64,000 nt of DNA from assembly GCF_000265295.1 (NCBI RefSeq), contig NC_018002.1:2108001-2172000 (forward strand). The letters are read 5' to 3'. Shown in pieces: positions 4,664-57,771 of this stretch. Both the position numbers and the translations under genes were made by a program. Below the pieces are notes generated by a model. The model was not told the DNA's origin and made no database searches. It worked only from the letters and a program-made list of their open reading frames with translations. Origin of the DNA: Sulfurospirillum barnesii SES-3 (GTDB lineage Bacteria; Campylobacterota; Campylobacteria; Campylobacterales; Sulfurospirillaceae). The first letter of the stretch is position 1. Every line of letters begins with the position of its first letter.

Positions 4664-4987
4664 ATAAAGCTCCTCATCAAAACCCACCAACAGCGCTCCA
4701 TCCTCACACTCAACAATGGGGCGCTTAAAGAGTAACTGCTCTTTTAAAAGCCACTCTTTTTTCGCTTCATCGCTGAGCTCTTTGGAGAGATTGAGCGTTT
4801 TAAATTTCGTTCCTTTGGTATTAAATAAACGCAAAAGTGGTTGTTTGCTAAGCCACTCTTCTAAGGTTTCTTCACTGATTTGTGTCGTTTTTAAATCCAC
4901 AAAGCTGTAAGGAATCACCTTAGCTTTAAAAAAAGAGAGCGCTTTTTTCACACTCCCACACGTTGTAATACCATACACTTTAATCAT
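4643..4987 (-). CDS. ArsC/Spx-family thioredoxin-fold protein
   Basis: 114 residues, the expected size. It starts MIKVYGITTCGSVKKAL, with a single catalytic-position cysteine, Cys-X3-Lys spacing and no CXXC. It also has the characteristic block FNTKGTKFK and, near the C terminus, FKRPIVECEDG. This fits the YffB/Spx/MgsR subgroup rather than a true arsenate reductase. Its ATG overlaps the TGA of the upstream diguanylate cyclase (ATGA at 4984-4987), so the two are translated together. Confidence 0.85.
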   Translation of the reverse strand: MIKVYGITTCGSVKKALSFFKAKVIPYSFVDLKTTQISEETLEEWLSKQPLLRLFNTKGTKFKTLNLSKELSDEAKKEWLLKEQLLFKRPIVECEDGALLVGFDEELYLRTFSS

Positions 4988-7107
4988 ACATTCTCCTCTT
5001 CATAAAATTCAATGCGATTACGCCCATTTTGTTTTGCCTGATACATCGCACTGTCTGCTTGCACAAAAAGCTGCTCTTTGTGCTCTTTTTTATGACCAAA
5101 AAGCCTCACACCAATACTGGCAGTACAGTGGTGGGTAATTGTTTTTTGAAGCCCATCTTCTTCTAGGGCAATACTATAAGGTTGACTTACATGTAAACGT
5201 ATTTTTGCGCCAATTTGCATTGCTTCTTCTTTGGCACGCTCTTTATCTTCACTCAAATTTCCCAGCACAACAATAAACTCATCCCCACCAAAACGTCCCA
5301 CAAAATCGACTTCTCGCACACACGCTTTCAAACGTCTAGCAACTTCCATCAGTAAAACATCTCCTGCATGATGTCCAAACGTATCGTTGAGGGGTTTAAA
5401 ATTATCCAAATCAATCACCATTAATGCCCCGTGATTTTTCTGCCGTTTTGCCTGAGCAAGGATAAGAGCAAACTGTTCATTAAACATTCTACGATTTGGT
5501 AAACGAGTCAGTGCATCATGATAGGCTAAATCATGAATCACCTCTTCAATTTTTTTACGCTCTGAAATATCCGTTGAGATACCGCATAACGCATAAATCA
5601 TCCCATTGGCATTACGTAAAGGTATTTTTGTTGAAAGATACGTTCGCTTTTGCTGTGTTATTCTATCGGTATTGCTCTCTTCTCGTGTCACTTTTCGCCC
5701 ATATTCAATGACTTCTTCATCATACATACGAATATTTTTTGCACTCTCTTCCTCAAAAAAATCATCATCCTCTTTACCTATTAATCCCTCAAGACCGATA
5801 CCAAAAAGTTCACAGGTTTTTTTATTGGCGTACATGTAACGGTACTGGGTATCTTTAATATAAATAAATGCTTCCACCGAATCTAAAATGGTATTGAGTT
5901 TTGCTTCACTCTCTCTAAGCCCCTGTGTTCGCTCTTTCACTTTCTCTTCAAGGGCTTCATTGTTACGGCGAACATAATGAATCATGGTGATAAAATGCTC
6001 TGATAATTCCCTAATTTCAGAACTTCCCACAGGAGAGACATCAATCGCATAATCGCCTTGTTCAACACGACCCATTGCCCTTTGCAACTCTTGAATGGGT
6101 TTTAAAATCAGAATGTTTAGCGCAAACCCAACAATTGATAATACCATTAAAAATAAAAAGCATAAAATGGGGAAGAGCGAAAAACTCCTAAATACTTCAA
6201 GCTCTTTTTCATCAATCAAGGTAAAATTAAACCACTCAAGATCTTCTAAATAGCTCATGCCCAAATGTTTTTTAACGCCTTCATACTCCACCCAAAATGT
6301 CACAATTTCAGACGGGTGTTCCTTTAAATATTGCGCTGTTTCTCTCATCTTTTTTCGATCTAAAGGATGGGTAAAAAGTGTTTCAATATTTTCACGGCTT
6401 TGGTATGAAGCTTCACGTTTTTCAGGTGTTGGCATGGTGGCGCTACGCTGGGCTTGAATCATAAATTCATGATTGGTAAAAAATGTTTTCACCCCCTCTT
6501 GCTCAATACCCACCGATTCCAACATAAAACGATTAAAATCAAGCCCCGTACCAACCACCCCTATAATATGACCCTCATGACGTATCGGCACATTGACCCA
6601 AACAAAGGTTTTGCCTCCTGCTGCTTCATCCATATTCACGTGAATGCGGTACTCACTCTTCTCCAAGAGCATATCAAAAAACCAACGATCATTGGGATTA
6701 AAAGCAGAGAGAATGTATTGAGACTCTGTACCATCATAACGGTAGTGTGAATCATTAAAATAGTAATAGTTACTTTTAGCAAAACCTGCAAAATAAGTAT
6801 GACCGTAGTATTTTAAACGGTACGCTTCTAAAACCTTTAATCCCTCTTCTCTTATCACAGGATTGGTATCATCCAATGCCATGGCAAGAATAGCAGGCTC
6901 TTTTGCCATCTCTTTGGCAATATCAACTTCATATAAAAGCGGTAAAAGCGTGCGATTTTTATCAAAAATCATCTGTTTTTTTATAAAACGCTCTGCCCAT
7001 TTTTCATTAATGTGATTGAGTAAGCTTGAAGAATACATCCAAATAGACAAAGAAAAAAAGATAAAAATAACTCCCATAAAAATGAATAACTTACCTCTAA
7101 GACCCAT
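4984..7107 (-). CDS. Membrane sensor diguanylate cyclase (Cache-HAMP-PAS-GGDEF)
   Basis: 707 residues from the ATG at 7107, which has GAGGAT upstream; an upstream in-frame ATG at 7137 lacks a good ribosome site. An N-terminal membrane helix is followed by a long periplasmic Cache-like sensor (with GVVGTGLDFNRF), a second membrane helix, HAMP, a coiled coil, a PAS domain (FIYIKDTQYRYMYANK) and a C-terminal GGDEF domain. The active-site GGDEF is intact and an RxxD inhibitory site (REVD) sits five residues before it, so an active, product-inhibited c-di-GMP synthase is expected. The ligand is unknown. Confidence 0.92.
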   Translation of the reverse strand: MGLRGKLFIFMGVIFIFFSLSIWMYSSSLLNHINEKWAERFIKKQMIFDKNRTLLPLLYEVDIAKEMAKEPAILAMALDDTNPVIREEGLKVLEAYRLKYYGHTYFAGFAKSNYYYFNDSHYRYDGTESQYILSAFNPNDRWFFDMLLEKSEYRIHVNMDEAAGGKTFVWVNVPIRHEGHIIGVVGTGLDFNRFMLESVGIEQEGVKTFFTNHEFMIQAQRSATMPTPEKREASYQSRENIETLFTHPLDRKKMRETAQYLKEHPSEIVTFWVEYEGVKKHLGMSYLEDLEWFNFTLIDEKELEVFRSFSLFPILCFLFLMVLSIVGFALNILILKPIQELQRAMGRVEQGDYAIDVSPVGSSEIRELSEHFITMIHYVRRNNEALEEKVKERTQGLRESEAKLNTILDSVEAFIYIKDTQYRYMYANKKTCELFGIGLEGLIGKEDDDFFEEESAKNIRMYDEEVIEYGRKVTREESNTDRITQQKRTYLSTKIPLRNANGMIYALCGISTDISERKKIEEVIHDLAYHDALTRLPNRRMFNEQFALILAQAKRQKNHGALMVIDLDNFKPLNDTFGHHAGDVLLMEVARRLKACVREVDFVGRFGGDEFIVVLGNLSEDKERAKEEAMQIGAKIRLHVSQPYSIALEEDGLQKTITHHCTASIGVRLFGHKKEHKEQLFVQADSAMYQAKQNGRNRIEFYEEENV

Positions 7108-7239
7108 TGTCTTATCCTCTGCGCATATTTTTTGCATTATAGCAAGTATTTGTCACAAATAAAGATGCTCCATGCCTCTATTTCATCCTATAAGCAAGAT
7201 TGCTTTATAATAAGCTTATTTTATAACAAGCTGGTATAT

Positions 7240-8139
7240 ATGAACCATTTTTCAAGCCAAACGCAAGGCTATATTTATGCTGTTTTAGCCTTTCTTTTTT
7301 GGGGATTAGTTCCCATCTATTTCAAGCTTATTGCTACCGTATCTGCTTTGGAGATACTCGCACACCGTATCATTTGGTCGGTTGTTTTACTCTTTGTTAT
7401 GATACTTTTAAGCCGTCAATTGGGCACATTAAAAGTACTTCTTGTAGATATTCATAAACTTAAATATTTAGTACTCTCAGCTTTATTAGTCTCTTTGAAT
7501 TGGTTGGTGTTTATTTGGGCGGTAGGACACAATATGATTGCAGAATCGAGTTTGGGGTATTACATTAACCCCTTGGTAAATTTTGCCTTAGGTATCCTCT
7601 TTTTTAAAGAGCGTCCAAATTTTTGGCAAAAAATCGCCATTGCCCTAGCCTGTATTGCCATTATGTATCAGGTCATTACCTTGGGCTCCTTGCCTCTTGT
7701 TTCACTCATTTTAGCGTTTAGTTTTGGCTTTTATGGACTCATTCGCAAATACATTCATCTGCCTTCCATGAGTGGGCTTTACATTGAGACGCTTATCTTA
7801 TTTCCCATGGCTTTATTCTATATTTTTTATCTTGCCAACACACAAAGCACCGCCTTTATCTTTCCACCCAATACAACCTCATGGCTTTTAATGCTAGCAG
7901 GTGTGGTTACGGTGATTCCTCTTTTATGGTTTAATGCTGCGGCCACACGTATTTCACTGGTGCATTTAGGCTTTTTTCAGTACATTGCGCCAACCGTTTC
8001 TTTTTTATTAGCTATTTTTGTTTATGATGAAGTTTTAGTTCCTGAAAAACTGACCAGTTTTATTCTCATTTGGATCGCACTGGCTATTTTTAGTGTGGAT
8101 GGGTATTTTAAAAAAAGAGTTGCAAAAGAGGAAAAATGA
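7240..8139 (+). CDS. rarD: RarD-type EamA-family transporter
   Basis: 299 residues from MNHFSSQTQGYIY, with about ten hydrophobic segments and the RarD-specific blocks FLFWGLVPIYFKL, EILAHRIIWSVV and NWLVFIWAVGHN. An in-frame ATG far upstream (7132) would add about 36 non-conserved residues and overlap the divergent cyclase gene. A TATAAT hexamer at 7206-7211 fits a promoter just ahead of the chosen start. RarD is an inner-membrane permease of the drug/metabolite superfamily with unclear substrate. The stop overlaps the start of the following response regulator (ATGA). Confidence 0.86.
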   Translation: MNHFSSQTQGYIYAVLAFLFWGLVPIYFKLIATVSALEILAHRIIWSVVLLFVMILLSRQLGTLKVLLVDIHKLKYLVLSALLVSLNWLVFIWAVGHNMIAESSLGYYINPLVNFALGILFFKERPNFWQKIAIALACIAIMYQVITLGSLPLVSLILAFSFGFYGLIRKYIHLPSMSGLYIETLILFPMALFYIFYLANTQSTAFIFPPNTTSWLLMLAGVVTVIPLLWFNAAATRISLVHLGFFQYIAPTVSFLLAIFVYDEVLVPEKLTSFILIWIALAIFSVDGYFKKRVAKEEK

Positions 8140-8810
8140 AAATTCTAGTCGTAGAGGACGATGAAAAAATCGCCTCCTTTTTAAAACAAGGACTTGAAGA
8201 GGAACGCTTTAGTGTTGATGGGTGCGATAATGGTGAAGATGCGCTTTATTTAGCCCAGATGAACCCTTATGATATTATTATTTTAGACCTGATGATACAC
8301 GGCATGCAAGGCGACGCGGTGTGCCAAAAATTGAGAGAACAAAAGCTTACGACACCCATCATTGTCCTGAGTGCCAAAAGTACGATCAATGACAAAGTGG
8401 GATTGTTGCATTTGGGTGCGGATGATTATCTCACCAAGCCTTTTAGTTTTGAAGAACTTTTAGCACGTATTCATGTCCAACTACGCAAAACAAACGATAA
8501 AGAACCTCTGCTTAAAGTCGCTGATTTGGAACTCAACCCCTTAACAAAAAATGTCACACGTGCGCAAGAGCCTATTTCCCTTACGGCTAAAGAGTATATT
8601 TTACTAGAATACTTGATGCGCCACAAAGGTGCAATTATAGAAGAACACATCCTTGCGGAGCAGCTTTTTAGTCAAGAACAAAGCATTAATAGCAATATTG
8701 TCAGTGTTTACATGTACCGTCTTCGTACCAAAGTGGATAAAAATCATCCGCAAAAACTGATTAAAACCATACGTAACCTAGGATACACCCTCAATGAAAA
8801 TGCTCTTTAA
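8136..8810 (+). CDS. OmpR-family response regulator
   Basis: 224 residues with a receiver domain (phospho-acceptor Asp in IIILDLMIHG, Lys in LTKPFS) followed by an OmpR/PhoB winged helix (TAKEYILLEYLM, then SVYMYRLRTKVD and IRNLGYTL). The start overlaps the rarD stop as ATGA and the end overlaps the kinase gene, so the three genes form one transcript. The downstream eptA gene and the direct repeats in front of it suggest that the regulator controls lipid A modification, in the manner of PmrA. Confidence 0.92.
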   Translation: MKILVVEDDEKIASFLKQGLEEERFSVDGCDNGEDALYLAQMNPYDIIILDLMIHGMQGDAVCQKLREQKLTTPIIVLSAKSTINDKVGLLHLGADDYLTKPFSFEELLARIHVQLRKTNDKEPLLKVADLELNPLTKNVTRAQEPISLTAKEYILLEYLMRHKGAIIEEHILAEQLFSQEQSINSNIVSVYMYRLRTKVDKNHPQKLIKTIRNLGYTLNENAL

Positions 8811-10221
8811 AAACCTTAGATTTCGCCTTTTATTAGCACTTTTTGTTATCTTATTTGCTTTTTTTTATGGCTTTGGATGGAGCGTTGTTTACACCATGAA
8901 AAAATCACAAGAACGCTCGTTGGAAGCTTCGCTAAAAGCCTATGCAAAAGATTTGCAGCATGACTATTTGGAAAGAAATGTTAAGGGGCAAATCATCGAT
9001 TTTGAGGAACTTAAAGAAGAACTTGATGAAGTCAAAGAAGAGTTTGATATACCTGTGTTGTATGCGCAATTACTGAGCTATAAAATTGCCTCCCAAAACC
9101 CTACCATCATTGCGCAATCACGTGATTTAAAAGGGGAGAGCCTTAAACTTACATCCAAACTTATTGAAAATATTCTCAATGACCCTAGCCAAATCTATTT
9201 TGCTGAAACACGCAACGAAACACTCAGTAAACATAAAATTTACATTGGAACACTGTTTTTAGGAATGCATGACAATCAAATGCTTTTACTGCAATGTGCC
9301 ATGCCTTATGATAAACGAACTCCTGAAATTGAAAAGATGGAAGAGACTTTGTGGATTGGCTTATCCATTTTACTTGCCCTTGTCCTTTTTCTTGCCTCTT
9401 TACTCCTTTCTACCTCGTTAAAAAATGTTCAAAAGGTCACCGATAAAGCTAAAAAGCTCAGCATTCAAGATAACTATATGAAAATTTCTAAAACACATAT
9501 TGCTCATGAAATTGATGATTTGATTGAGACGTTTAACACCCTCTTAGAACACCTTCAATATGCCTATGCGCAAGTAAAAGAGTTTGGACAAAATGCTTCG
9601 CATGAACTCAAAACGCCCTTAACCATTATGCAAGGAGAAATTGAGATAGGCCTAAAAAAAGAGCGAAGCACGCAAGAATACCAACACATTTTGCATAAAG
9701 TTGCCAAAGAGGTAACGCATTTGCATGAGGTAATTGAGAAAATTCTCTTTTTATCCAGCAGTTCTAAAAACGATCTTATGCGCCATTTTAGTGAAGTCTA
9801 TGTGGATGAAATTTTGATGGAGAGTATTACTGAAAAAAAAGAGAAAGCGCAAACACGAGGCATTACATTAGTAGTAGATGCCCTAGAGCCTCTTAGCATT
9901 CAAAGCAATGCTCTGCTCTTAAAAATGGTTGTGAACAATTTAATTGACAATGCCATTAAATATGCGTTGGGAAACTCCTCCGTGCATCTTGCTTTACATG
10001 GAAAAGAACTTCGCATTGTCAATAAAGGTACACTCATTGATGATACTGAGCTTGAACACATTTTTGAACCTTTCTATCGGGGAAAACGGGCAAAAAAACA
10101 TGCACAAGGAAGTGGGCTGGGGCTTGCGATTGTCAAAAATATTCTTGATGCACACCATGCACACATTACGCTTACACAAGAAAAGAAAACAAACACCATT
10201 ATACTCACCGTACAGTTTTAA
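8794..10221 (+). CDS. Membrane sensor histidine kinase
   Basis: 475 residues: an N-terminal membrane helix, a short periplasmic segment (about residues 35-185), a second helix, a HAMP-like linker, a dimerisation domain with H box FGQNASHELKTPLTIMQGE, and a catalytic domain with N box NNLIDNAIKYA and G box GSGLGLAIVKNILDAH. It overlaps the response regulator gene by 17 bp. The periplasmic part is Glu/Asp-rich, which in PmrB-like sensors binds cations; a cation or peptide signal is possible here but inferred. Confidence 0.91.
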   Translation: MKMLFKNLRFRLLLALFVILFAFFYGFGWSVVYTMKKSQERSLEASLKAYAKDLQHDYLERNVKGQIIDFEELKEELDEVKEEFDIPVLYAQLLSYKIASQNPTIIAQSRDLKGESLKLTSKLIENILNDPSQIYFAETRNETLSKHKIYIGTLFLGMHDNQMLLLQCAMPYDKRTPEIEKMEETLWIGLSILLALVLFLASLLLSTSLKNVQKVTDKAKKLSIQDNYMKISKTHIAHEIDDLIETFNTLLEHLQYAYAQVKEFGQNASHELKTPLTIMQGEIEIGLKKERSTQEYQHILHKVAKEVTHLHEVIEKILFLSSSSKNDLMRHFSEVYVDEILMESITEKKEKAQTRGITLVVDALEPLSIQSNALLLKMVVNNLIDNAIKYALGNSSVHLALHGKELRIVNKGTLIDDTELEHIFEPFYRGKRAKKHAQGSGLGLAIVKNILDAHHAHITLTQEKKTNTIILTVQF

Positions 10222-45821: not shown

Positions 45822-46042
45822 GCAAAACCTTCTTACATGTAAAGATATGTACAGTATAAATCTTTTTAAAACATTCAACTAAAAGTATTACAAAATGAAA
45901 TATTTATATTTTTTTGTTACCCTAGTTCACACTTTAGAGAAGAAAAAAAAATTATTTTACAATTTGAAACAAAAAGTCTTTTTTATGTCTTTACAGTTCA
46001 TTAAAATCGTTTAAAAATTAGAGAAAAAGGAATACTGCTATT

Positions 46043-47401
46043 ATGGAACATGTAGAAAAGCCTGCGGTCAAACTCATCGCTATTGCCTTGTTGCTTGGTG
46101 GCGTGGGTTACGCTTTGGCACTCTTAGGATTTAAACCGCTTCATGCCACGATGATTGGTGTGCTTGTCTTTTTAGTCACACTTTGGACCAATGAGGGTCT
46201 ACCTGTGGGCGTTGTTTCCCTCTTACCTATCATTCTTTTCCCCGCTTTGGGACTACTGGAAACGGGGGCTACCACCACGAACTACTCAAACCCCATTATT
46301 TACCTCTTTTTAGGAGGATTTTTACTGGCGATTGCCACGGAAAAAACGGGGCTTCACAAGGTTATTGCTAAAAAGATTTTAACCGTATTTCCTACCACAC
46401 CACGAGGCGTTATCTTCTCTTTAGCCATCACCTCAGGACTTTTAAGCTCCATTTTATCGAACACCACCACCGCATTATTGCTGATTCCTATTGCGACGTT
46501 TTTGAGTTCGCATAAGATTTTGCAGGTGCGTTTTATTTTGGCCATCGCCTATGGTGCGAGCATTGGTGGTATTATTACCCCTGTGGGAACACCGCCTAAT
46601 ATGCTTCTTTTAGGCTTTATGGAAAATCATGGTATGGAGATGATTCCTTTTGTAAAATGGATGATGCTGGTCACGCCTGTTGCCTTTGTCATGGTCATTT
46701 TTGCTTCCTTTTTTCTCTCCTATGGCTTACACAATGTGGGGCATATTCAAGAAATCGAAGAAGAGCATAAAATCACACATGCGCAAAAACGTCTTTTATG
46801 GATGCTGATCTCTTTAATTGTCCTTTTGTTTGTCAACTCTCCGATTAAACCCTATTATGATGGGTTGGGACTGGATGAGCGCATTATTTTACTCAGCTAC
46901 GGTTTGATTATGTTTTTGCCAAAAATTGGCGTACTCAAATGGGAAGACAGCAAAAAAATACCCTTTGATATTATGTTTCTCTTTGGTGCGGGGTTTGCCA
47001 TTGCTGCAGCATTTTCTAAAACAGGATTAGCAGGAGAGATTGCGAATAAATTGATGCTCGTTGCTGATTTTTCACCGTGGCTCATTTTACTCATTGTTGC
47101 AGCTTTAGTTACTTTTACCACAGAAATTACAAGCAACACTGCACTGATCTCCATTATGCTTCCCATCATCTTCTCACTCTCTCAAGCCGTGGGGGCTGAT
47201 ACACAACTGCTTATGATGGCAGCCACCATTTGTGCGAGTTACGCCTTTATGCTTCCTATCGCCACCCCACCCAATGCCATTGCGATGAGTACGGGTATGG
47301 TGAGTGTTGCTTTTATGGCAAAAATCGGGTTTGTTCTCAATGTTGTCGGTATTCTTTTGATTGTTTTTGCAGCAGAATTTTACTGGAAGTTTTTTCTTTA
47401 A
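46043..47401 (+). CDS. DASS/SLC13-family anion:sodium symporter
   Basis: 452 residues, about eleven membrane helices. Family motifs: GLPVGVVSLLPIILFPALG, the SNTTTALLLIPIATFL helix hairpin, PVGTPPNMLLLGFM, and near the C terminus SNTALISIMLPI and LPIATPPNAIAMSTG. It imports dicarboxylates, sulfate or phosphate with sodium; dicarboxylate is favoured by the metabolic setting but not proved. The AT-rich intergenic region 45822-46042 upstream shows no further gene. Confidence 0.88.
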   Translation: MEHVEKPAVKLIAIALLLGGVGYALALLGFKPLHATMIGVLVFLVTLWTNEGLPVGVVSLLPIILFPALGLLETGATTTNYSNPIIYLFLGGFLLAIATEKTGLHKVIAKKILTVFPTTPRGVIFSLAITSGLLSSILSNTTTALLLIPIATFLSSHKILQVRFILAIAYGASIGGIITPVGTPPNMLLLGFMENHGMEMIPFVKWMMLVTPVAFVMVIFASFFLSYGLHNVGHIQEIEEEHKITHAQKRLLWMLISLIVLLFVNSPIKPYYDGLGLDERIILLSYGLIMFLPKIGVLKWEDSKKIPFDIMFLFGAGFAIAAAFSKTGLAGEIANKLMLVADFSPWLILLIVAALVTFTTEITSNTALISIMLPIIFSLSQAVGADTQLLMMAATICASYAFMLPIATPPNAIAMSTGMVSVAFMAKIGFVLNVVGILLIVFAAEFYWKFFL

Positions 47402-47407
47402 TTCTTG

Positions 47408-47437
47408 TTACATGTAAGGATTTTTCCTTACATGTAA
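47408..47437. terminator. Bidirectional hairpin built from two TTACATGTAA copies
   Basis: TTACATGTAAGGA, a TTTT loop and TCCTTACATGTAA form a perfect 13-bp stem between the convergent DASS and selD genes. Each arm contains a copy of the iterated palindrome (47408-47417 and 47428-47437). The right copy also provides the selD stop codon (TAC ATG TAA, ending FYM). Confidence 0.7.
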
Positions 47438-48459
47438 AAGAGTGGTTTGTCCTCTTTTTCAAACACCTCAGCGATAATAGCACTGTAACTAAGCCCCTCA
47501 TCAAGCAGTTCTTGCAAAAGTTTTGGCGCATCGTTTTGGGAGACGGCTATTAAAAGTCCGCCCGAAGTTTGTGCATCGTAGAGCAAAATTTCATCTTTAT
47601 GTGGCACTTTAGCTTCTACATATGCACTCACATAACTTTTGTTATTGTACGCACCTGCTGGGATAATCCCCATATCCGCCATCGCTCTGGCTTCCTCTAA
47701 AATAGGAATCTTGTTCACCCAAAAACCAATGCTCACTCGATGAAAACTCATCTCATAGGCATGACCTAACAGACCAAAACCTGTAATATCTGTACACGCA
47801 CTTACATCGTATTTTTGCATAATGCGTGAAGCTTTATGATTGAGCGTGGCTAAAATAGACGCCACTTTTTCTACCACACTATTCTCAAGCATATCCGCTT
47901 TAATGGACGTGGTTAACACACCCATTCCCAAAGGTTTGGTTAAAATGAGCACATCTCCCACCCGAGGCGTGTTGTTGCGGTAAATCTTTAAAGGATGCAC
48001 AAAACCTGTGACACTCATGCCATAGGTCATCTCAGGCGCTTCTATCGTATGCCCCCCAATAATCACCCCACCGCACTCATTGACCTTACTCTGTCCGCCT
48101 GCTAAAATCTCTTTAAGCACGCTTCGTGGTTGATGACAGCCATCAAATCCGACAATATTCATTGCAGTAGCGACTTCACCACCCATAGCGAACACATCGC
48201 TTAGCGAGTTTGCCGCGGCAATTTGCCCATACACAAATGGGTCATCCACCACAGGGGTGATAATATCGACCGTTTGCACAAGGGCCCGCTCTTCATCGAG
48301 GTAATAGACACTGGCATCATCACTCTCATCCATTCCTACCAGTACCTTCTCATGCCTGCAGTTGAGACCACCTATCGCTTCTGTGAGGTCTCCCGGACCC
48401 AGCTTGGCAGCACAACCCGCAGCTTTGACGTACTTGGTCAATTTTGCTTCGTTGTTCAT
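47428..48459 (-). CDS. selD: Selenophosphate synthetase
   Basis: 343 residues from the ATG at 48459, preceded by a TAAGG ribosome site. The catalytic pair is Cys and Lys in AAGCAAK (a Cys codon TGT, not UGA). Gly-rich loops and metal-binding Asp include DDASVYYLD, GGHTIEAPEMTYG and TSGGLLIAVS. It makes selenophosphate from selenide and ATP for selenocysteine (and possibly selenouridine) synthesis. It lies downstream of yedF and in the same window as selC. The stop codon comes from a TTACATGTAA copy. Confidence 0.94.
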   Translation of the reverse strand: MNNEAKLTKYVKAAGCAAKLGPGDLTEAIGGLNCRHEKVLVGMDESDDASVYYLDEERALVQTVDIITPVVDDPFVYGQIAAANSLSDVFAMGGEVATAMNIVGFDGCHQPRSVLKEILAGGQSKVNECGGVIIGGHTIEAPEMTYGMSVTGFVHPLKIYRNNTPRVGDVLILTKPLGMGVLTTSIKADMLENSVVEKVASILATLNHKASRIMQKYDVSACTDITGFGLLGHAYEMSFHRVSIGFWVNKIPILEEARAMADMGIIPAGAYNNKSYVSAYVEAKVPHKDEILLYDAQTSGGLLIAVSQNDAPKLLQELLDEGLSYSAIIAEVFEKEDKPLFYM

Positions 48460-48574
48460 TGTATACCTTAATTTCAACTTCTTGAGCATGAAATGTTCAC
48501 GAAGTAGTACGAGCCTTCCGCTGAGGAAAACCCAGTGTTAACGTAGTTTGAAAAGCTTTGCTTTGAAAGCGTTA

Positions 48575-49165
48575 TTATAAAGATATTGTACCCTCTCCAC
48601 CAAAGAGCATCTCAATGGTACCATAGGCATTGCCGATTTTTCCCACTTTAAGCTTCTCACTCACCCCATAAAATTCCAAACAGACCCCGCACGAATAGAT
48701 TTCAACGCCTTTGGCCTCAAGCGCTTGGAGCACTTCAATGATAGGAGAATTTTCATCAGCAGTGGTTAAATACACAGCAGTGTTCACACAAATAATGCGC
48801 TTTGGAATTTTAGGCAATTCTAAAGCTGATTTTAAAAAACCGACAATAAGCTTAGCGCCTAATTCGCCCTCGCCTACTGTATTGCTTTTAAGAAAAAGCG
48901 TTTTATCTAAAAACTGCTCACTTTTTTCCTCACTAAGCACCTTACATGTAAAGCCTTTAATAATAGAAACAAGTGTTTTTCCATCAGCCATTGCCTCCAC
49001 ACGTGCTTCAAAGCCACCGTTTTGTGCAAAACGCACCACATTTTCTTTGGAAGCTAGGTTATCCACCACAACCTCTAAAATGGAATCATTGGGCAAAGCT
49101 TCTAAGGCTTTTTTGGTTTGTAATACGGGCTCAGGACACGCTAAGCCACTGCAATCAATTTTCAT
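48575..49165 (-). CDS. yedF: YedF selenium-metabolism protein (TusA-like + DsrE-like)
   Basis: 196 residues from the ATG at 49165, which has AAGGAAA upstream. The N-terminal SirA/TusA domain has the active-site CPEPVLQTKKAL; the C-terminal domain (RIICVNTAVYLTTADENSPIIEVLQALEAKGVEIYSCGVC) is DsrE/DsrF-like with a CGVC pair. This fusion is the 'YedF' protein associated with selD, thought to handle reduced selenium or sulfur. The 115-bp gap before selD contains no gene. A palindromic operator lies 28 bp upstream. Confidence 0.9.
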   Translation of the reverse strand: MKIDCSGLACPEPVLQTKKALEALPNDSILEVVVDNLASKENVVRFAQNGGFEARVEAMADGKTLVSIIKGFTCKVLSEEKSEQFLDKTLFLKSNTVGEGELGAKLIVGFLKSALELPKIPKRIICVNTAVYLTTADENSPIIEVLQALEAKGVEIYSCGVCLEFYGVSEKLKVGKIGNAYGTIEMLFGGEGTISL

Positions 49166-49192
49166 GAATTTCCTTTTGTACATAATAGCATT

Positions 49193-49207
49193 TGTCTAAA
49201 CCTTAGA
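49193..49207. promoter_or_regulatory. Palindrome GTCTAA-N3-TTAGAC upstream of yedF-selD
   Basis: On the gene's strand it reads GGTCTAAGGTTTAGACA, sharing all but one base with the site at 26350-26366 before the double-cubane operon. It sits 28 bp upstream of the yedF ATG, near a TATTAT -10-like sequence, a position suited to repression. Confidence 0.5.
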
Positions 49208-49267
49208 CCTACAAGAGCAGAAGAGAGATAAATATCTCTCAGAATAAACAGACAATGATGTAAAAAT

Positions 49268-49456
49268 TTATTTTTGGTTCATGGTCTTTTCAACCCATTT
49301 TTGAGCGGCATCAACACTCTCAAACGTATGGCTTTTTGCTACTTGCACCTGACCTTCGTAAAAACGAACCCGAATACCATCTTGAACCTCATCAATTTTA
49401 ATTCGTGTAATACGATCTGCATTTAGATACACTCTGTCATTTAACTTTACAAACAT
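49268..49456 (-). CDS. Small hypothetical protein, 62 residues
   Basis: A soluble 62-residue protein (MFVKLNDRVYLNADRITRIKIDE... ending VEKTMNQK) of beta-rich appearance, with AAAGGGAG upstream of its ATG. No family recognised. It lies between yedF and the tungstate/molybdate ATPase gene on the same strand, so it may belong to that transcript. Confidence 0.55.
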   Translation of the reverse strand: MFVKLNDRVYLNADRITRIKIDEVQDGIRVRFYEGQVQVAKSHTFESVDAAQKWVEKTMNQK

Positions 49457-49508
49457 GTGAAACTCCCTTTCTTTAATAATGCTTTATTTTAGCACGATTT
49501 TTGTAAAA

Positions 49509-50732
49509 CTATGCCTCTTTTGATGGCACGTTAATGGCCGATTTTTTAAAATGAACATACACCTGTGCAGAGGGATAAAAACGGTATTGCTCAAAATATT
49601 CAAAGCTCTCTACACACTCTAAAACATGTGTGCCTATAGCAATTTTTAAAGAAATTTCATTGCTTTTCACACTGTGAGCCACTTCACGAATAATCCCTTT
49701 GAGGCAAACACTATCATCATTACATGTAAACGGTTCCAAACCAACACAGATGTCACGAGGGTTAATCGCCACACCTCTTTTTTCACCAATACGATAACTT
49801 TTAGGAAGTGACATACGCTGTGTCTCATCAAAATCAAAAATACGTTCATCCCCACTTTCACGCCACTTTCCCATGATTAAATTACTGCTTGTAAAATCCA
49901 TTAAACGCCCAAAATGAAGCCCAACTTTACGGGTTACAATTTCATTAAGCCACAACAAATCGTGACTTGCAACAATCACAGTCGTTCCCCATTCACGATT
50001 GGCATACACGATAGCATCGCTAAATTGTGGAAGCCCACTGTAATCTAAACTGTTGGTTGGTTCATCTAAGAGTTGCGATAAAACATCGTTGGTGCTTCCC
50101 ACTTGTTGCACCCGTCCATCCATAACGATGGCAATTCTATCCGCCAAATACGAAGCCTCACGAAAATTGTGCGTTACATGTAACGTCGTTAAACCATACC
50201 GCCTATGAATATCTTTAAGAAATTTCATAATGGCATTGCGAAAGGTGGGATCAATAGCACTTAAAGGTTCATCTAAAAGTAAAATTTTAGGGCGTGAAAA
50301 AACCGCCCTAGCGATGGCGATGCGTTGTTTCTCTCCACCTGAGAGATTATCAATGCGCCTATCAAGCAACTTTTCCAAACCTAAAAAATCCACCAAATCG
50401 TTAAACAAAGACTCCGCATCTTCAATCTCTTTATACCGTCCTGCAAAACGGATATTTTCTCGTACGTTCAAATTGGGAAACAGTGCAAAGTCTTGATACA
50501 CAAAACCAATGGAGCGCTCTTCTGGGGCTTTATGGGTTATTTCTTCTTGATTAAAAAGAAGCTTTCCACCCACACGGTGCAAGCCTGCGATGGATTCTAA
50601 AATAACTGTTTTTCCAGCACCGCTGTGCCCTAAGATGACAAAATACTCACCCTCTCCCACATCAAAGCTAATATCATGAAGATGAAACGCCCCCACATTA
50701 CATGTAAGGGCTTGAAGGCTTAAAAAACTCAT
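49509..50732 (-). CDS. Molybdate/tungstate-type ABC ATPase with duplicated C-terminal NBD fragment
   Basis: 407 residues. A complete nucleotide-binding domain comes first: Walker A GHSGAGKT (35-42), Q80, signature LSGGE (130-134), Walker B LLLDEP (151-156), His188. A second Walker B LLDEPTNSLD (221-230) and a second switch segment VIVASHDLLWLNEIV with H257, LHFGRL, resembling the tail of a TupC-type ATPase, then follow. The last 80 residues look like a TOBE ligand-sensing domain. This looks like a fusion of a WtpC/ModC-like ATPase with the end of a second ATPase. It overlaps the binding-protein gene by 4 bp with no permease between. Confidence 0.75.
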   Translation of the reverse strand: MSFLSLQALTCNVGAFHLHDISFDVGEGEYFVILGHSGAGKTVILESIAGLHRVGGKLLFNQEEITHKAPEERSIGFVYQDFALFPNLNVRENIRFAGRYKEIEDAESLFNDLVDFLGLEKLLDRRIDNLSGGEKQRIAIARAVFSRPKILLLDEPLSAIDPTFRNAIMKFLKDIHRRYGLTTLHVTHNFREASYLADRIAIVMDGRVQQVGSTNDVLSQLLDEPTNSLDYSGLPQFSDAIVYANREWGTTVIVASHDLLWLNEIVTRKVGLHFGRLMDFTSSNLIMGKWRESGDERIFDFDETQRMSLPKSYRIGEKRGVAINPRDICVGLEPFTCNDDSVCLKGIIREVAHSVKSNEISLKIAIGTHVLECVESFEYFEQYRFYPSAQVYVHFKKSAINVPSKEA

Positions 50733-51679
50733 TTTTGTCCTAAAATGGAACTATCGCCTGTGATGATAGGAGGATTCATGGCATCTTGTCCGTTTTTCTT
50801 CATAATCGCTTGTCCCTCAGCAGAGAGAACAAAGTTCACAAAAGCAACCGCACCTGCTTTGTTGGCGGGAGATGTAGCGTTTTCAAACACACTCAAACCA
50901 TACACCATTGGCGCACCCACTTGTTTTTCCACAACGCCAGGTTTCTTCCCATCAATGTTAAAGGAAACCGCCTTGTAAGCCTCTTCAAACTTGGCATTTT
51001 TAAGATTAATTTCTTCAGGCAGTGTGACGTATTTGAGTTTGTGTTGGTCTGCAACGGATTTGTAAATGAAGAGATAATCGTACTGTCCCGCTTCCAAAAG
51101 CCCTAACAAATCGGTCTCTTTGGGGCGTACAATCACTTTTTTAGCGTTCTCTTCCCCAATTTCATAGTGATCACCATAGCCAAACAATGCGTCATAAAGC
51201 CCTGCTTTTTTGTAATGTTTTTCTGCCAACATGGTCACAAGCATAGAACGATACCCGCAAGGGTCTAAATTGGGGTTAGAATGCCCTACCACAACGCCCT
51301 CTTTCAAAAAGATGTCCGTCCAGTTTTTTTCGTTAATGTCTTTCGCAAATTTTGATTTCTCAGTGTAGGCTAAAACCATCTCATTGGTCGCAAAATGGGC
51401 ATTAAACTTTGCATGATTAGGAATCAACATGGTATCAATCACCTGATAATCCGCACTGCCCATCACATCCGCAGCCCTTCCCAAATCCGTTACTTTACGA
51501 GCTGCTGCCACACTGCCACTGGGTTCTCTTTGCACATCAAATTGGGGATATTTTTCTTCAAAAACTTTTTCAATTTCTGCAAAAGGAACCGATAAACTTC
51601 CTGCATGTAAAACAATAACAGGCTCTTTAGCCAACAACAACGATGCCACAAGGGCACTGAGTACCCAAACTTTTTTCAT
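50729..51679 (-). CDS. Tungstate/molybdate-binding protein (WtpA/ModA-like)
   Basis: 316 residues from the ATG at 51679 with AAGGAA upstream. Signal peptide MKKVWVLSALVASLLLA. The ligand segments LHAGSLSVPFAEIE, EPSGSVAAARKVTDLGRAAD and MGSADYQVID, followed by NPNLDPCGYRS, match the WtpA type of periplasmic molybdate/tungstate receptor. The partner ATPase follows with an overlap; the permease gene expected in between is missing. Confidence 0.86.
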   Translation of the reverse strand: MKKVWVLSALVASLLLAKEPVIVLHAGSLSVPFAEIEKVFEEKYPQFDVQREPSGSVAAARKVTDLGRAADVMGSADYQVIDTMLIPNHAKFNAHFATNEMVLAYTEKSKFAKDINEKNWTDIFLKEGVVVGHSNPNLDPCGYRSMLVTMLAEKHYKKAGLYDALFGYGDHYEIGEENAKKVIVRPKETDLLGLLEAGQYDYLFIYKSVADQHKLKYVTLPEEINLKNAKFEEAYKAVSFNIDGKKPGVVEKQVGAPMVYGLSVFENATSPANKAGAVAFVNFVLSAEGQAIMKKNGQDAMNPPIITGDSSILGQK

Positions 51680-51704
51680 TAAAATTCCTTTAAAGATATG
51701 TGTT

Positions 51705-51714
51705 TTTTGCATAT
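51705..51714 (-). promoter_or_regulatory. TTTTGCATAT element, shared with fdhD and fdhA upstream regions
   Basis: TTTTGCATAT occurs here upstream of the tungstate-binding protein gene, again at 53368-53377 upstream of fdhD, and as TTTGCATAT on the opposite strand at 58336-58344 in the fdhA upstream region. A CATAT-N8-ATATG inverted repeat overlaps the copy here (51710-51727). All three lie in molybdenum/tungsten gene promoters. Confidence 0.35.
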
Positions 51715-51817
51715 TTATACGGATATGTCGCATAAAAAACCAATTCTACGTCACATTTAATGTTTTCAACCTTAAGAGTCTACTCACTTTTCATAGCATC
51801 AAAATAGCATACACGTA

Positions 51818-52555
51818 CTATTTTCGAAACTCTTTTTGATTGCGAGGCTTTAAAAAAAGCTCTTTAAACCGCTCATTGGCATAATTTTCAATGTCATCTT
51901 GAAGCTTACGATAATTTTCCATGTATTCATGCGCCACAGAGGTAAGTTTTGTGCCCGCATCTTCACCGCCCCCTTGTTTAGTCTCTACCATCACATCGTT
52001 GATATTTTTTTGCAAAATTTTAATGTGCGTCCATGCTTTTTTATAATTCATCCCAATTTTTTCAGAGGCTTTGGCAATAGACCCTTCTGATTCGATGAGC
52101 TCTAAAATCTCCGTTTTACCTTTACCAAAGAGCAATTCACCCTCGGCATTTTCTATCCATGTTTTGGTTTTGACATACAAACGTGGTCGTCTTTTTTCTG
52201 TAAAACAGCCTAAACTACAATACGTCACATCAATGTTTTTCTCTTTGAGGGTGCCTCTGATTTTTTTAAGCCCAATGCCACCTGCTTGCGCCCTTGCATC
52301 TTTACATGTAACACGATTTTGATCGTCTAAAAGTGGAGTAAGTCGGTTTAACGCTTCTATATCAAACGATCCACCTTCTACCTTTCCAAATTGACCCAAA
52401 TCACACGCATCAATACGTATTTCCATCGCTTTAGCTGCATCGCCAACCTCACGAATCGGGCATTTTAATTTAGCCGCAATTTTATAGGCATCGGCACAAT
52501 CCAGCTTGCCTTTATCGTTCAAATAGTGTCTAATCAACTCTTGCATTTCAGCCAT
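51818..52555 (-). CDS. ModE-type HTH regulator with unusual duplicated N-terminal domain
   Basis: 245 residues from the ATG at 52555 with GGAGG upstream. The C-terminal part (GKTEILELIESEGSIAKASE, GMNYKKAWTHIKIL, KQGGGEDAGTKLT) is the ModE winged helix. Ahead of it are two related segments of about 40 residues: CADAYKIAAKLKCPIREVGD...IDACDLGQFG and CKDARAQAGGIGLKKIRGTL...VTYCSLGCF. No TOBE domain follows. It probably senses a different signal than classic ModE and may regulate fdh and metal uptake. One base separates it from fdhD. Confidence 0.72.
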   Translation of the reverse strand: MAEMQELIRHYLNDKGKLDCADAYKIAAKLKCPIREVGDAAKAMEIRIDACDLGQFGKVEGGSFDIEALNRLTPLLDDQNRVTCKDARAQAGGIGLKKIRGTLKEKNIDVTYCSLGCFTEKRRPRLYVKTKTWIENAEGELLFGKGKTEILELIESEGSIAKASEKIGMNYKKAWTHIKILQKNINDVMVETKQGGGEDAGTKLTSVAHEYMENYRKLQDDIENYANERFKELFLKPRNQKEFRK

Positions 52556-52556
52556 T

Positions 52557-53345
52557 TTATACCTCCACTGAAATTCTTTGAGGATGACGGTACACATTCA
52601 TTGTATCGCCTCTGACAAAACCAATGAGCGTCAGCCCAAACTTTTCTGCTATCATCAAACCTAAACAGGTCGATGCCGTACGAGAGGCTAAAATAGGAAT
52701 TTGATGCATCACTGCTTTGGCTACCATTTCAGAAGAAAGTCTGCCACTGACCATTAAAAAAGCATTGCGTACATCTATCCCTGCCATCACCGCTTTTCCT
52801 ACGACTTTGTCAATGGTGTTGTGTTGGGCAATATCTTCTCCAATAAAATATGTATTTTCATCTGTAAAGAGTTTTGCCGTATGCACACAGCCTGTTTGTT
52901 CGTACAACGGGCACTCGGTGTAAAACTGACTCATTTCACGGGAGAGTTTGGAAGCGCTCAAACGAAACGTGCTTTTAATCACTTTGGCTTCAATCGCTTC
53001 TGGGTCTATGTTTGCGGTCATGCTTTTGCCACATCCGCTAATCACCACGCCCTCAGCACTTAATTTTTTAATATTTTCATCATTCACTTTGGCTTCAATG
53101 TCCACACGCATGCCATCATTAAGAAGCTTCAAAGAAGTGACATCGCTAAATTTCTCAATGATATTTTCACTCATCAAATACCCAATCGCAAGGGCTTCTT
53201 GATCCACAGGCGTTGCCATCACCGCACCCACACGATTGCCATTCACATAGAGTTCAAGCTTAATTTCACGCACCAATGTATCTTCACGCTCAAATATCTC
53301 TTTACCTTTGATCTTGGTAATGCTTGTTTTAAAAACAGCTTCCAT
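52557..53345 (-). CDS. fdhD: Formate dehydrogenase sulfurtransferase
   Basis: 262 residues with ALAIGYLMSENII, VISGCGKS and the later blocks EDIAQHNTIDKVVGKA and SGRLSSEMVAKAV. FdhD transfers sulfur from a cysteine desulfurase to the molybdenum/tungsten cofactor of formate dehydrogenase. The conserved loop carries CGKS rather than the CxxC of the E. coli protein, so only the first cysteine is present. GGAGGAG precedes the ATG. Same strand as fdhABC, 107 bp downstream. Confidence 0.9.
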   Translation of the reverse strand: MEAVFKTSITKIKGKEIFEREDTLVREIKLELYVNGNRVGAVMATPVDQEALAIGYLMSENIIEKFSDVTSLKLLNDGMRVDIEAKVNDENIKKLSAEGVVISGCGKSMTANIDPEAIEAKVIKSTFRLSASKLSREMSQFYTECPLYEQTGCVHTAKLFTDENTYFIGEDIAQHNTIDKVVGKAVMAGIDVRNAFLMVSGRLSSEMVAKAVMHQIPILASRTASTCLGLMIAEKFGLTLIGFVRGDTMNVYRHPQRISVEV

Positions 53346-53451
53346 GCTTTCTCCTCCAACGTGCTAATTTTGCATATATATTGTCAAAAATTGTAGCGTA
53401 CTATCCTTAAAATGAGTACGCTACTTTCTTACATGTAAAGGAACAAAGGAA

Positions 53452-54351
53452 CTAAAACTTTCCTTTTTCCTTAAGCTTCTTATACCACGCATTGTGAAGA
53501 AACTTAACTTCTTCTTCTTCGACATACCCTGTAATAATACTATGCACTGCCCCTTTAATGGCAAACATAGACATATAGACATGGGTAATAAAGAGGGCGA
53601 CAACCGCAAAGCCCATCACATTATGCACAATAGCGGCAACTCTTAGAAGGTCTATTTGAGAAAGACCTGTGAGGTTATGCAACATCTCCATTTTAAAATC
53701 TAAGAAGAACATCATTGCCCCACTTAGAATCATGGTAATGCCACCAAGTATTGCCACCCAGTACCACATCTTTTGACCTGCGTTAAATTGGGTAGCATTA
53801 ATCACTTGTTTCTCTTTAGAGAGGTATCCTCCTAAAATCATAAACCATTTGACATCTTCAAGGTTAAAGAGTGCCTCTTTCAGCCACATGAGTGCCATAG
53901 GAATGACCACAATCGCAAAGGGAATGGTAAAGATACCATGAAGGTTTTTTGCCATTCGAACGAGTGTTCCTCCACCAAAGAAATCACCAAAAACGATAAT
54001 AAAGCCTGTTGGAACGAGTACCAAAAAGCTTACTGCTGCAATTTGGTGAACGGTTCGATGAAACAGGTTAAAGGCATAATGTTTTTTCTCACTGTGTGGG
54101 AAGACTTTAGGGCCTACCAGTTTATAGTGTAAGAAGAAGACACTTGGTACACCAATGAGGACAGCTAGAAATATCCATGCAAAGTATTTGCCTTGAAGCA
54201 AGGTAAAGAGTGCTCCTAATTTCAAGGTCTCTTCTTGTCCGTACCCTAGGATATTTTGTATGCGCATCTCACCCCAGATTTGGCTATCCGTAGCCATTGC
54301 CACGGATGCCAAAGCCAGAGTCGCAATGAACATATAAATGACTTTTTTCAT
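53452..54351 (-). CDS. fdhC: Formate dehydrogenase cytochrome b subunit
   Basis: 299 residues from the ATG at 54351, which has AAAGGAT; an upstream ATG overlapping the fdhB stop (54366) is also possible. A signal-like N terminus (IATLALASVAMA) precedes four main membrane helices, with haem-ligand histidines in NLFHRTVHQIAA, NLHGIFTIP, AAIVHNVMGFA and FITHVYMS. It passes electrons from the iron-sulfur subunit to menaquinone. A palindrome copy lies 13 bp past the stop. Confidence 0.9.
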   Translation of the reverse strand: MKKVIYMFIATLALASVAMATDSQIWGEMRIQNILGYGQEETLKLGALFTLLQGKYFAWIFLAVLIGVPSVFFLHYKLVGPKVFPHSEKKHYAFNLFHRTVHQIAAVSFLVLVPTGFIIVFGDFFGGGTLVRMAKNLHGIFTIPFAIVVIPMALMWLKEALFNLEDVKWFMILGGYLSKEKQVINATQFNAGQKMWYWVAILGGITMILSGAMMFFLDFKMEMLHNLTGLSQIDLLRVAAIVHNVMGFAVVALFITHVYMSMFAIKGAVHSIITGYVEEEEVKFLHNAWYKKLKEKGKF

Positions 54352-54362
54352 TGCGAATCCTT

Positions 54363-54965
54363 TCATTGGTTTTTATACGCCTTATCCCATCCATAAGGTG
54401 CATTAGCCCCTTTACCTCGTGTTGCGACACGTGCTCTAAAGACATTCGCAACCGATTGGGCATCGCCTACAAGTAAGGCTTTGGTGGAACACATGGCTGC
54501 ACACACAGGTACTTTGCCCTCTGCGATTCTATTTTGACCATAGAGATGTCGCTCTTTTTCAGAGTTAGTCTCTAAAGGACCACCTGCACACATGGTACAT
54601 TTATCCATTGCCCCTTTAGCACCAAAGGCGCCATCACGAGGAAATTGTGGTGCACCAAATGGACATGCGTACAAGCAGTATCCACAGCCTATACATGTCT
54701 CTTTATCATGAAGAACGATTCCATCTTCTCGGATATAAAAACAATCCACTGGGCATACTTGCTCACATGGAGCGTCTGTACAGTGCATACATGCAATCGA
54801 TGTACTCATTTCCTTACCAGGTATTCCTTCATTGATTGTGACAACTTTTCGTCTACTGATACCAACGGGTAGCTCATGTGCTTCCGCACATGCGACGCTA
54901 CAGCCATCACACTCGATACATCTGCTCTCATCGCAGTAAAATTTCATTCTTGCGTATTCCATCAT
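54363..54965 (-). CDS. fdhB: Formate dehydrogenase iron-sulfur subunit
   Basis: 200 residues with four ferredoxin-like cysteine groups: CIECDGCSVAC, CMHCTDAPCEQVC, CIGCGYCLYAC and, in split form, CTMC with CAAMC. These would hold four [4Fe-4S] clusters. The start is one of two adjacent ATGs (54965 or 54962). It lies 7 bp downstream of fdhA and its stop overlaps the region of the fdhC start. No membrane anchor is seen. Confidence 0.92.
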   Translation of the reverse strand: MMEYARMKFYCDESRCIECDGCSVACAEAHELPVGISRRKVVTINEGIPGKEMSTSIACMHCTDAPCEQVCPVDCFYIREDGIVLHDKETCIGCGYCLYACPFGAPQFPRDGAFGAKGAMDKCTMCAGGPLETNSEKERHLYGQNRIAEGKVPVCAAMCSTKALLVGDAQSVANVFRARVATRGKGANAPYGWDKAYKNQ

Positions 54966-54972
54966 CCACCCC

Positions 54973-57771
54973 CTACGCTTTTTCTACGCGGCATAGACCC
55001 GTTTTTGTCTCGGGAATTTGCGTCATAATATCATAGCCATAACCAACCACGGTGTTAGCCGACTCACCTGTTGCGTAAGGTTTTGTACCCGCTGGATAGT
55101 TCGCACTTAAATCTTTACCTTGGAATTTACCCATATAGTGGAATGGCATAAAGATAGTTTTTTCATCCACGGTGTAAGAGAATTTCGCTTTCACATGAAT
55201 GCGTGTTCCTTCAACGCCATACACCCACACCATTTCCCCATTACGAATACCAAGATTGAGTGCTGTATTGGGATGAATATCAATAAACATTTCAGGATTA
55301 AGCGCACTGAGGTATTTTGAAGCTCTTGTCTCTGCACCTGCTCCACTGTGGGTTACCAAACGACCTGTGGTCATGATAAGTGGGAACTCTTTGGTGTAAT
55401 CTTTTTTCGTTTGAGCAGAGATATATTTCGTATCAACCCTAAAGTGATCTTTTTTATCTGGATAGGTCGGATACGCTTTGATCATCTCAGCACTTGGCGA
55501 GTGAATAGGCTCTCTGTGAAGTGGAATTTGATCTGGGAAGTTCCACGCTTTAGCTCTTGCTTTTCCATTACCATATGGGCAAAGTCCTAATGCAAGACCT
55601 TTTTTAACAAGGATACCACTAAGATCGGTCGCAAAGTTTTTACCTGCAACGATTGCTTTCTCTTCTTCGCTAAATGTTGCACCTGCTTTTTCAAGCATGT
55701 CTAGGGTTAATGCACCATGTCCTTTAGCAATCGCTGAACCTTTTGGCGCACTGCCCTCACCTGCAAGAAGGCTGACGCCATCTTTTTCAACGCCCCAGTT
55801 CAGACGAAATCCCATACCGCCATCACTCACAGGTTTGTTGACATTGTACAAGATTGGGCTACCGCTGTGGGTTTCATTCCAACACGGCCATGGAAGTCCG
55901 TAGTATTCACCTTTCATAGGTCCCATACCCGCAACGCTGACCTCTTCAAACATATGCCAGTTTTCTTGGTGTTTTTTAAGTCGCTCAGGCGTGTGTCCAC
56001 CCATACCAATAGAGCGAATACCCCGTGCAATCTCACGTGTAGCATCTTCTGGCCACTCAAATTTACCTTTACCATCGCCTAAGGCTTTGGTGTATTCATC
56101 ATAAAATCCTAAGCGTTTAGCTAATTCAAACATAATGTCGTGGTCGGTTTTACACTCAAATTGTGGTTCAACCACTTTGCTTCTCCATTGAACATTACGT
56201 CCTGTTGCTGTCACAGAACCGCTGGTTTCAAATTGTGTTGCCACGGGGAGAATAAAAAGGTTATCTTTTCTATCGGTTAAAATAGCCGCATCATTCATAA
56301 ATGGATCGGTGATGACTAAAAGCTCTACATTATCAAGCCCTTTTTTCACCTCTTGAAGTTGTGCGGTAGAAGTAATTCCACAGCCCATCACCACAAGGGC
56401 TTTTAGGTCAGTTCCGCCATTGTAAATGGCGTCATTTTTCATAACACCCTCAGACCAACGTGCCAGTGTAAAACCATTTTTTGTCATCATTTCACTATTT
56501 TTAAAACGCCCTTTGATCCACTCATAATCTGTTTTCCAAACATTTGAAAAGTGTTTCCATGCAGGCTCACCTAAACCATAATAGCCAGGAAGTGTCTCAG
56601 ATGAACACCCCATATCAGAGGCACCTTGAACGTTATCATGACCTCTTAGAATGTTACAGCCACCGCCTTCAACACCCATATTGCCTAAAATCATCTGCAA
56701 GATTGGTCCTACACGGGTATTTCCCGTACCAATACTGTGTTGTGTCCAACCCATGGTCCACACCAAACAGCCTGGTTTTGAGGTAGCAAAAAGTTTGGTC
56801 ACTTGAATCAACTCGGTTTCACTCACGCCTGTTACCTTAGAAACCACATCAGGTGTCCATTTTTCAGCCTCTTTAAACACATCTTCGTAGCCAAATACAC
56901 GCTCTTGCAAATACTTTTTATCTTCCCAACCGTTTTTCAAAATCAGATGAATCATTCCGTAAATAAAGGCAATATCGGTACCTGAGCGTAAACGCACGTA
57001 CATGTCCGCTTTAGCAGCCGTTTTCGTAAAGCGAGGCTCAACCACAATCAACTTTGTGTTGCTACGCTCTTTGGCTTTTAAGAAGTGTTGGAAACCAACA
57101 GGATGTGCTACCGCTGGGTTGGCGCCCATAATTAAAACCGCTTTTGAGTTTTGAATGTCTCCTAGTTGGTTGGTCATCGCACCATAACCAAAGGTATTGG
57201 CAACACCCGTTACGGTTGAGCTATGGCAAAGTCGTGCTTGATGATCGATGTTATTGGTACCGTAAAATGCGGCAAATTTACGTAAATAATACGCTTGCTC
57301 ATTGCTCATCTTCGCTGAGCCTAAAAACATTGCCGCATCAGGACCGTGTTTTTCACGAAGGGCTTTTAATTGTGCACCAATTTTTGTATAAGCATCTTCC
57401 CACGAGATACGTTTCCATTGACCGCCCACTTTTTCCATCGGGTATTTTAAGCGTACATCGGAGCGAATCATATCGATCATGCCCGCACCCTTACAGCAAT
57501 GTCCCCCTAAACTTAATGGATGATCTTGTGCCACTTCTTGACGAACCCAAACGCCATTGTGTACTTCTGCTAAAACACCACAACCAACCGAACAGACGTT
57601 ACAGATGGTTTTGACCATTTTTGAACCTGGGTAAGGGTTTTTAACCTCTTCCTCGGTTGCGGCTCTCGTTACTTTTTCACTGGCAAATCCAGAAGTTGCT
57701 CCAAAAGCACCCGCAATGGCTGCCATTTTAAGAAAACTTCTTCGCCCTACTTTTGCATTTAATTCACTCAT
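54973..57771 (-). CDS. fdhA: Formate dehydrogenase catalytic subunit, cysteine form
   Basis: 932 residues from the ATG at 57771 with AAGGAG. A twin-arginine signal (GRRSFLKMAAIAGAF) directs it to the periplasm. A [4Fe-4S] site CNVCSVGC with a later CC, and the molybdopterin domains (IMGANPAVAHPVGFQ, MGWTQHSIG, ILRGHDNVQGASDMG) are present. The metal ligand lies in HQARLCHSS and is encoded by TGC (57226-57228), so this is a cysteine enzyme, not a selenoenzyme, although selC and selD are present nearby. The neighbourhood of tungstate uptake genes suggests W or Mo. Confidence 0.94.
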   Translation of the reverse strand: MSELNAKVGRRSFLKMAAIAGAFGATSGFASEKVTRAATEEEVKNPYPGSKMVKTICNVCSVGCGVLAEVHNGVWVRQEVAQDHPLSLGGHCCKGAGMIDMIRSDVRLKYPMEKVGGQWKRISWEDAYTKIGAQLKALREKHGPDAAMFLGSAKMSNEQAYYLRKFAAFYGTNNIDHQARLCHSSTVTGVANTFGYGAMTNQLGDIQNSKAVLIMGANPAVAHPVGFQHFLKAKERSNTKLIVVEPRFTKTAAKADMYVRLRSGTDIAFIYGMIHLILKNGWEDKKYLQERVFGYEDVFKEAEKWTPDVVSKVTGVSETELIQVTKLFATSKPGCLVWTMGWTQHSIGTGNTRVGPILQMILGNMGVEGGGCNILRGHDNVQGASDMGCSSETLPGYYGLGEPAWKHFSNVWKTDYEWIKGRFKNSEMMTKNGFTLARWSEGVMKNDAIYNGGTDLKALVVMGCGITSTAQLQEVKKGLDNVELLVITDPFMNDAAILTDRKDNLFILPVATQFETSGSVTATGRNVQWRSKVVEPQFECKTDHDIMFELAKRLGFYDEYTKALGDGKGKFEWPEDATREIARGIRSIGMGGHTPERLKKHQENWHMFEEVSVAGMGPMKGEYYGLPWPCWNETHSGSPILYNVNKPVSDGGMGFRLNWGVEKDGVSLLAGEGSAPKGSAIAKGHGALTLDMLEKAGATFSEEEKAIVAGKNFATDLSGILVKKGLALGLCPYGNGKARAKAWNFPDQIPLHREPIHSPSAEMIKAYPTYPDKKDHFRVDTKYISAQTKKDYTKEFPLIMTTGRLVTHSGAGAETRASKYLSALNPEMFIDIHPNTALNLGIRNGEMVWVYGVEGTRIHVKAKFSYTVDEKTIFMPFHYMGKFQGKDLSANYPAGTKPYATGESANTVVGYGYDIMTQIPETKTGLCRVEKA

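Follow-up and report, generated by a model that had tools for sequence, protein, structure and literature searches.

How a single open reading frame came to carry one complete ABC nucleotide-binding domain (NBD) followed by a second Walker B motif and H-loop is the question raised by positions 49,509 to 50,732 on the reverse strand of the window, the 64,000-nucleotide stretch of the Sulfurospirillum barnesii SES-3 genome analysed here. The original prediction was that two ATPase genes had been joined in frame and the DNA between them lost. Profile, protein and DNA matches identified the 407-residue frame as a wtpC::tupC fusion. We consider it highly probable (about 0.86) that one lineage-specific deletion of about 3.2 kb fused wtpC to tupC and ended dedicated tungstate import, leaving behind a chimeric ATPase that is probably non-transporting. 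The locus was not mentioned in the searchable Sulfurospirillum genomics papers.

Results

Domain content of the fused ATPase

The wtpC-derived part (50,074 to 50,732, reverse strand) comprises residues 1–219 and two bases of codon 220. It aligned without gaps to intact WtpC (327 residues) from relatives at 62–93% identity, the closest being WtpC of G005 (93% over residues 1–220), and the base-by-base match stopped at 50,074. That this part holds a complete NBD, as predicted, was confirmed by the motifs, all of which lie within residues 1–220 (Walker A GHSGAGKT, Q-loop, LSGGEKQ, ILLLDEP and H188), by a Pfam ABC_tran match at residues 18–157 and by a match to the NCBIfam WtpC model NF040840 at residues 6–224. 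A phmmer search with the fused protein matched the solved Mo/W NBDs 3d31 and 2onk as far as residue 220. The WtpC alignment match ended past residue 219, and the C-terminal domain of WtpC (residues 221–327) is missing from the fused protein. With all ATPase motifs present, the NBD half may remain able to fold and to bind ATP.

The tupC-derived part (49,509 to 50,072, reverse strand) encodes fused residues 221–407, which correspond to the final 187 residues (156–342) of intact 342-residue TupC, with 77–81% identity to TupC of ten congeners and 52% at family level. Positions 150–316 of the NCBIfam TupC model NF041774 matched residues 220–400, in agreement with the predicted TupC-like character of this half. 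It carries a second Walker B/D-loop (LLDEPTNSLD), a second H-loop (VASHD) and a C-terminal TOBE-like tail. As anticipated from the sequence, it has no Walker A of its own and also no signature motif; in the alignment, TupC residues 1–155, with Walker A, Q-loop and signature, are missing. Judged by these motifs, the TupC piece is predicted to form an incomplete second NBD core that lacks Walker A, followed by the TupC tail.

The NF040840 score of the fused protein (268.7 bits) is below the curated cut-off of 440 bits. The intact WtpC of G004 and of locus L009 likewise reached only 278–281 bits, so this cut-off does not separate fused from intact WtpC, and the NCBIfam cut-offs are uninformative here because intact congeneric WtpC and TupC both fail them. 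The predicted structure of the fusion had a mean pLDDT of 52, a low value that is due to the shallow alignment for the NBD half. The tail alone was usable, and the model was not taken as evidence on function. The tail is beta-rich at residues 321–400 (pLDDT about 70–89), which lends modest support to the proposed TOBE-like nature of this region, the rest of the model being poor.

Undeleted gene order in relatives

The loss of intervening DNA was supported by two congeners, G004 (locus L052) and G008 (locus L055), in which the order fdhC-fdhD-modE-wtpA-wtpC-wtpB-tupA(reverse)-tupB-tupC is unbroken. WtpA and TupA of these loci passed the NCBIfam cut-offs, as did TupB (334.7 versus 320); WtpB was the best match yet stayed below its cut-off (287 versus 340). 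Collinearity between the window and L052 extends from fdhC to position 4980 of L052, within wtpC, and resumes at 8197, within tupC. Counted from aligned codons, L052 bases 4981–8189 (3209 bp) and reversed-L055 bases 5989–9204 (3216 bp) have no counterpart in the window. Relative to G004 and G008, the missing DNA of about 3.21 kb comprises the end of wtpC, the whole of wtpB, tupA and tupB, and the start of tupC.

Directly upstream of the fused frame, and overlapping it by 4 bp, lies an intact wtpA for the tungstate-binding protein (50,729 to 51,733, reverse strand), which passed the NCBIfam WtpA cut-offs; an alignment places its likely true start at about 51,679 (MKKVW...). The conserved cluster continues on the same strand with a ModE-like regulator (51,818 to 52,597; TIGR00637 at residues 158–251, and synteny). 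The ModE DNA-binding match of this regulator is C-terminal, about 150 N-terminal residues are without a Pfam match, and this arrangement within the protein is conserved in relatives. Synteny in relatives also anchors the locus upstream by a gene that we take, from its sequence, to be fdhD-like (52,557 to 53,345, reverse strand) and downstream by yedF (48,575 to 49,183, reverse strand; TIGR03527).

An Rfam search over positions 46,000 to 56,000 revealed no riboswitch, and promoter and terminator scans gave signals at about shuffle level. A stretch of about 60 bp at 51,670 to 51,728 on the reverse strand, just upstream of and into the wtpA start (AAATATGCAA...ACATAT...AAAGG), recurs at L009:7780-7840, where the gene downstream of it belongs to a second Mo/W-type importer; the two copies may represent a common regulatory site. 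G005, the nearest relative, carries between wtpB and yedF a second ABC importer of molybdate/tungstate-like type, made up of binding protein, permease and ATPase (L009:7831-10413, L070). This implies a locus where such importers come and go.

The junction

The join falls inside codon 220 (window position 50,073) and places WtpC residues 1–219 in frame with TupC residues 156–342. Bases 658 and 659 of the fused frame are those of wtpC in 11 of 11 relatives, the sequence from base 662 is that of tupC, and base 660 (50,073) belongs to neither parent gene. The mean base match to wtpC dropped from 0.75 before the junction to 0.17 after it, and that to tupC rose from 0.25 to 0.80. The switch from wtpC to tupC at 50,074/50,072 (reverse strand) thus lies within 3 bp of the position of about 50,070 given originally. 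Microhomology at the breakpoints amounts to 1–2 bp at most, so the event looks like illegitimate rather than homologous joining. The doubling of Walker B and H-loop results from a join at non-equivalent positions of the two ATPases.

These data suggest an ancestor with two adjacent tungstate ABC importers, wtpABC and tupABC. As the comparison with congeners shows, a single deletion that runs from wtpC codon 220 to just before tupC codon 156 (about 3.2 kb) removed wtpB, tupA and tupB and brought the front two-thirds of wtpC in frame with the back half of tupC. The fused ATPase, whose gene still follows wtpA and overlaps it, was most likely left without a channel.

Distribution of the fusion

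The 407-residue fusion was not found in any of 60 relatives, 24 genus genomes or 44 family genomes, where all WtpC and TupC frames are of normal length. Among the genus genomes, 13 besides that of the window matched the WtpC half or more and ten matched the TupC half; both halves were matched in two of the 24 (G004 and G008), at separate genes. An additional match in G022, at 41%, was a different ATPase. A 201-bp junction probe run against the 44 family genomes gave one-sided matches only (positions 1–97, or from 99 or 105 onward) and none that spanned the junction.

Of the 24 genus genomes, 12 have WtpB and 10 have TupB; the window genome has neither. Three more genus genomes are without both, namely G017, at 99% completeness, and two incomplete ones, G001 and G018. 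Losing both tungstate systems is therefore not unique, and what is unique is the fusion. The nearly complete congener G017 indicates that the genus has lost dedicated tungstate import repeatedly or on a wider scale.

Transport genes left in the genome

The window genome is a single contig of 2,510,109 bp with 99.99% completeness. WtpB, TupA and TupB were absent from the whole of it, and the positive controls were found in congeners. The remaining oxyanion genes are modABC (G000:C1:1767734-1770437), wtpA and the fused ATPase. The sole WtpB/TupB-like permeases are ModB (29% and 23% identical, respectively) and a two-domain permease that contains a weak match. In the modABC operon of the window genome, a separate 174-residue gene (L068:8297-8821, reverse strand) lies between modA and modB and has the appearance of a stand-alone molybdate-binding (TOBE-like) protein.

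An ABC importer requires two transmembrane subunits. With both tungstate permeases gone, the fused ATPase lacks a cognate partner; judged from gene content, there is most likely no channel left for it to drive, and it probably no longer imports tungstate. Tungstate, if it enters at all, would do so via ModABC or other anion routes.

Evolutionary rate and history

The fused frame is free of stops and frameshifts. The nonsynonymous distance of the WtpC half to G004 was 0.115 (0.107–0.134 for others), and that of the TupC half to the outgroup G024 was 0.410 (versus 0.372–0.421). With an open frame and no clear acceleration of protein change in either half, either the deletion happened recently or constraint still acts on the protein. 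Both wtpA and the NBD half evolve slowly (dN/dS about 0.06–0.07 versus the nearest relatives), a ratio that cannot date the deletion because synonymous sites are saturated in most pairs, above all in the TupC half. The latter deviates at 21 of 149 positions that are invariant in eight congeners, which is not decisive because the window lineage itself branches outside that group.

In the nearest relatives (G005, G015, G022 and G003), wtpABC is present and tup genes are absent at the locus. The TupC half of the window falls outside the congeneric TupC group, and so does its ModE; this placement is consistent with vertical descent from a two-system ancestor and subsequent loss of tup in the sister lineages. 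For the comparison with G005, dS is about 0.67 across the wtpC half and about 1.18 across wtpA. The deletion, placed in the window's own lineage, would be younger than the split from G005.

Discussion

An assembly or sequencing artefact, in which the organism still carries the 3.2 kb and the assembly dropped them, has to be weighed since a single assembly stands for the species. We regard it as very unlikely: the genome is one contig of near-full completeness, breakpoints sharing so few bases offer no repeat to collapse, the joined product is in frame, and the lost genes have no copy elsewhere in the genome. That the fusion is just an ordinary ModC/TupC subfamily in which half a domain was duplicated is close to excluded, and is refuted at the genus and family levels. 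No relative has the fusion, its halves are two separate neighbouring genes in relatives, and the same architecture in many distant genomes, which was named originally as evidence against a fusion, was looked for in 60 relatives, the genus and the family and did not turn up.

A working ATPase that is re-coupled to ModB, with WtpA as the binding protein, would make a hybrid transporter that keeps tungstate import. The intact, slowly evolving wtpA and NBD half fit this, as does the presence of ModB in the genome; moreover, NBDs of the Mo/W family work without a C-terminal domain, and the NBD chain of A. fulgidus (2onk) has 240 residues. ModB, however, shows just 29% identity to WtpB across 196 residues and is encoded beside its own partners ModA and ModC, and the slow rate may wholly predate the deletion, which makes a hybrid transporter improbable. 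We give similarly little credence to a functional chimera more generally, be it a WtpC motor with a TupC sensing tail that drives ModB, or a soluble tungstate sensor acting with the ModE-like regulator. The fusion is most likely a transporter relic left by the deletion and not a new machine.

Compared with known systems, the fusion resembles WtpC (NF040840; solved relatives 2onk and 3d31) in its complete NBD and its position directly after wtpA, but differs in lacking the WtpC C-terminal domain and the partner permease WtpB. It shares with TupC (NF041774) the second half of the protein, but not residues 1–155 or the partners TupA and TupB. As in other in-frame deletion fusions of neighbouring paralogous genes, two head-to-tail genes were joined and the intervening DNA was lost; here, in contrast, the join lies at non-homologous positions, Walker B and H-loop are doubled, and a whole set of transport genes was lost as well. 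The result is a clean natural fusion of genes, of a kind already known, and not a new system. Beyond the original prediction, the gene order in congeners indicates that the lost DNA held both tungstate permease genes and tupA.

The locus thus offers a clean natural case in which two redundant transporters were lost in one event that left an open, annotatable "gene", with the pre-deletion neighbours surviving in congeners. Annotation by NBD similarity would label the fusion a working tungstate/molybdate ATPase. We predict that the species relies on ModABC or low-affinity routes for tungsten.
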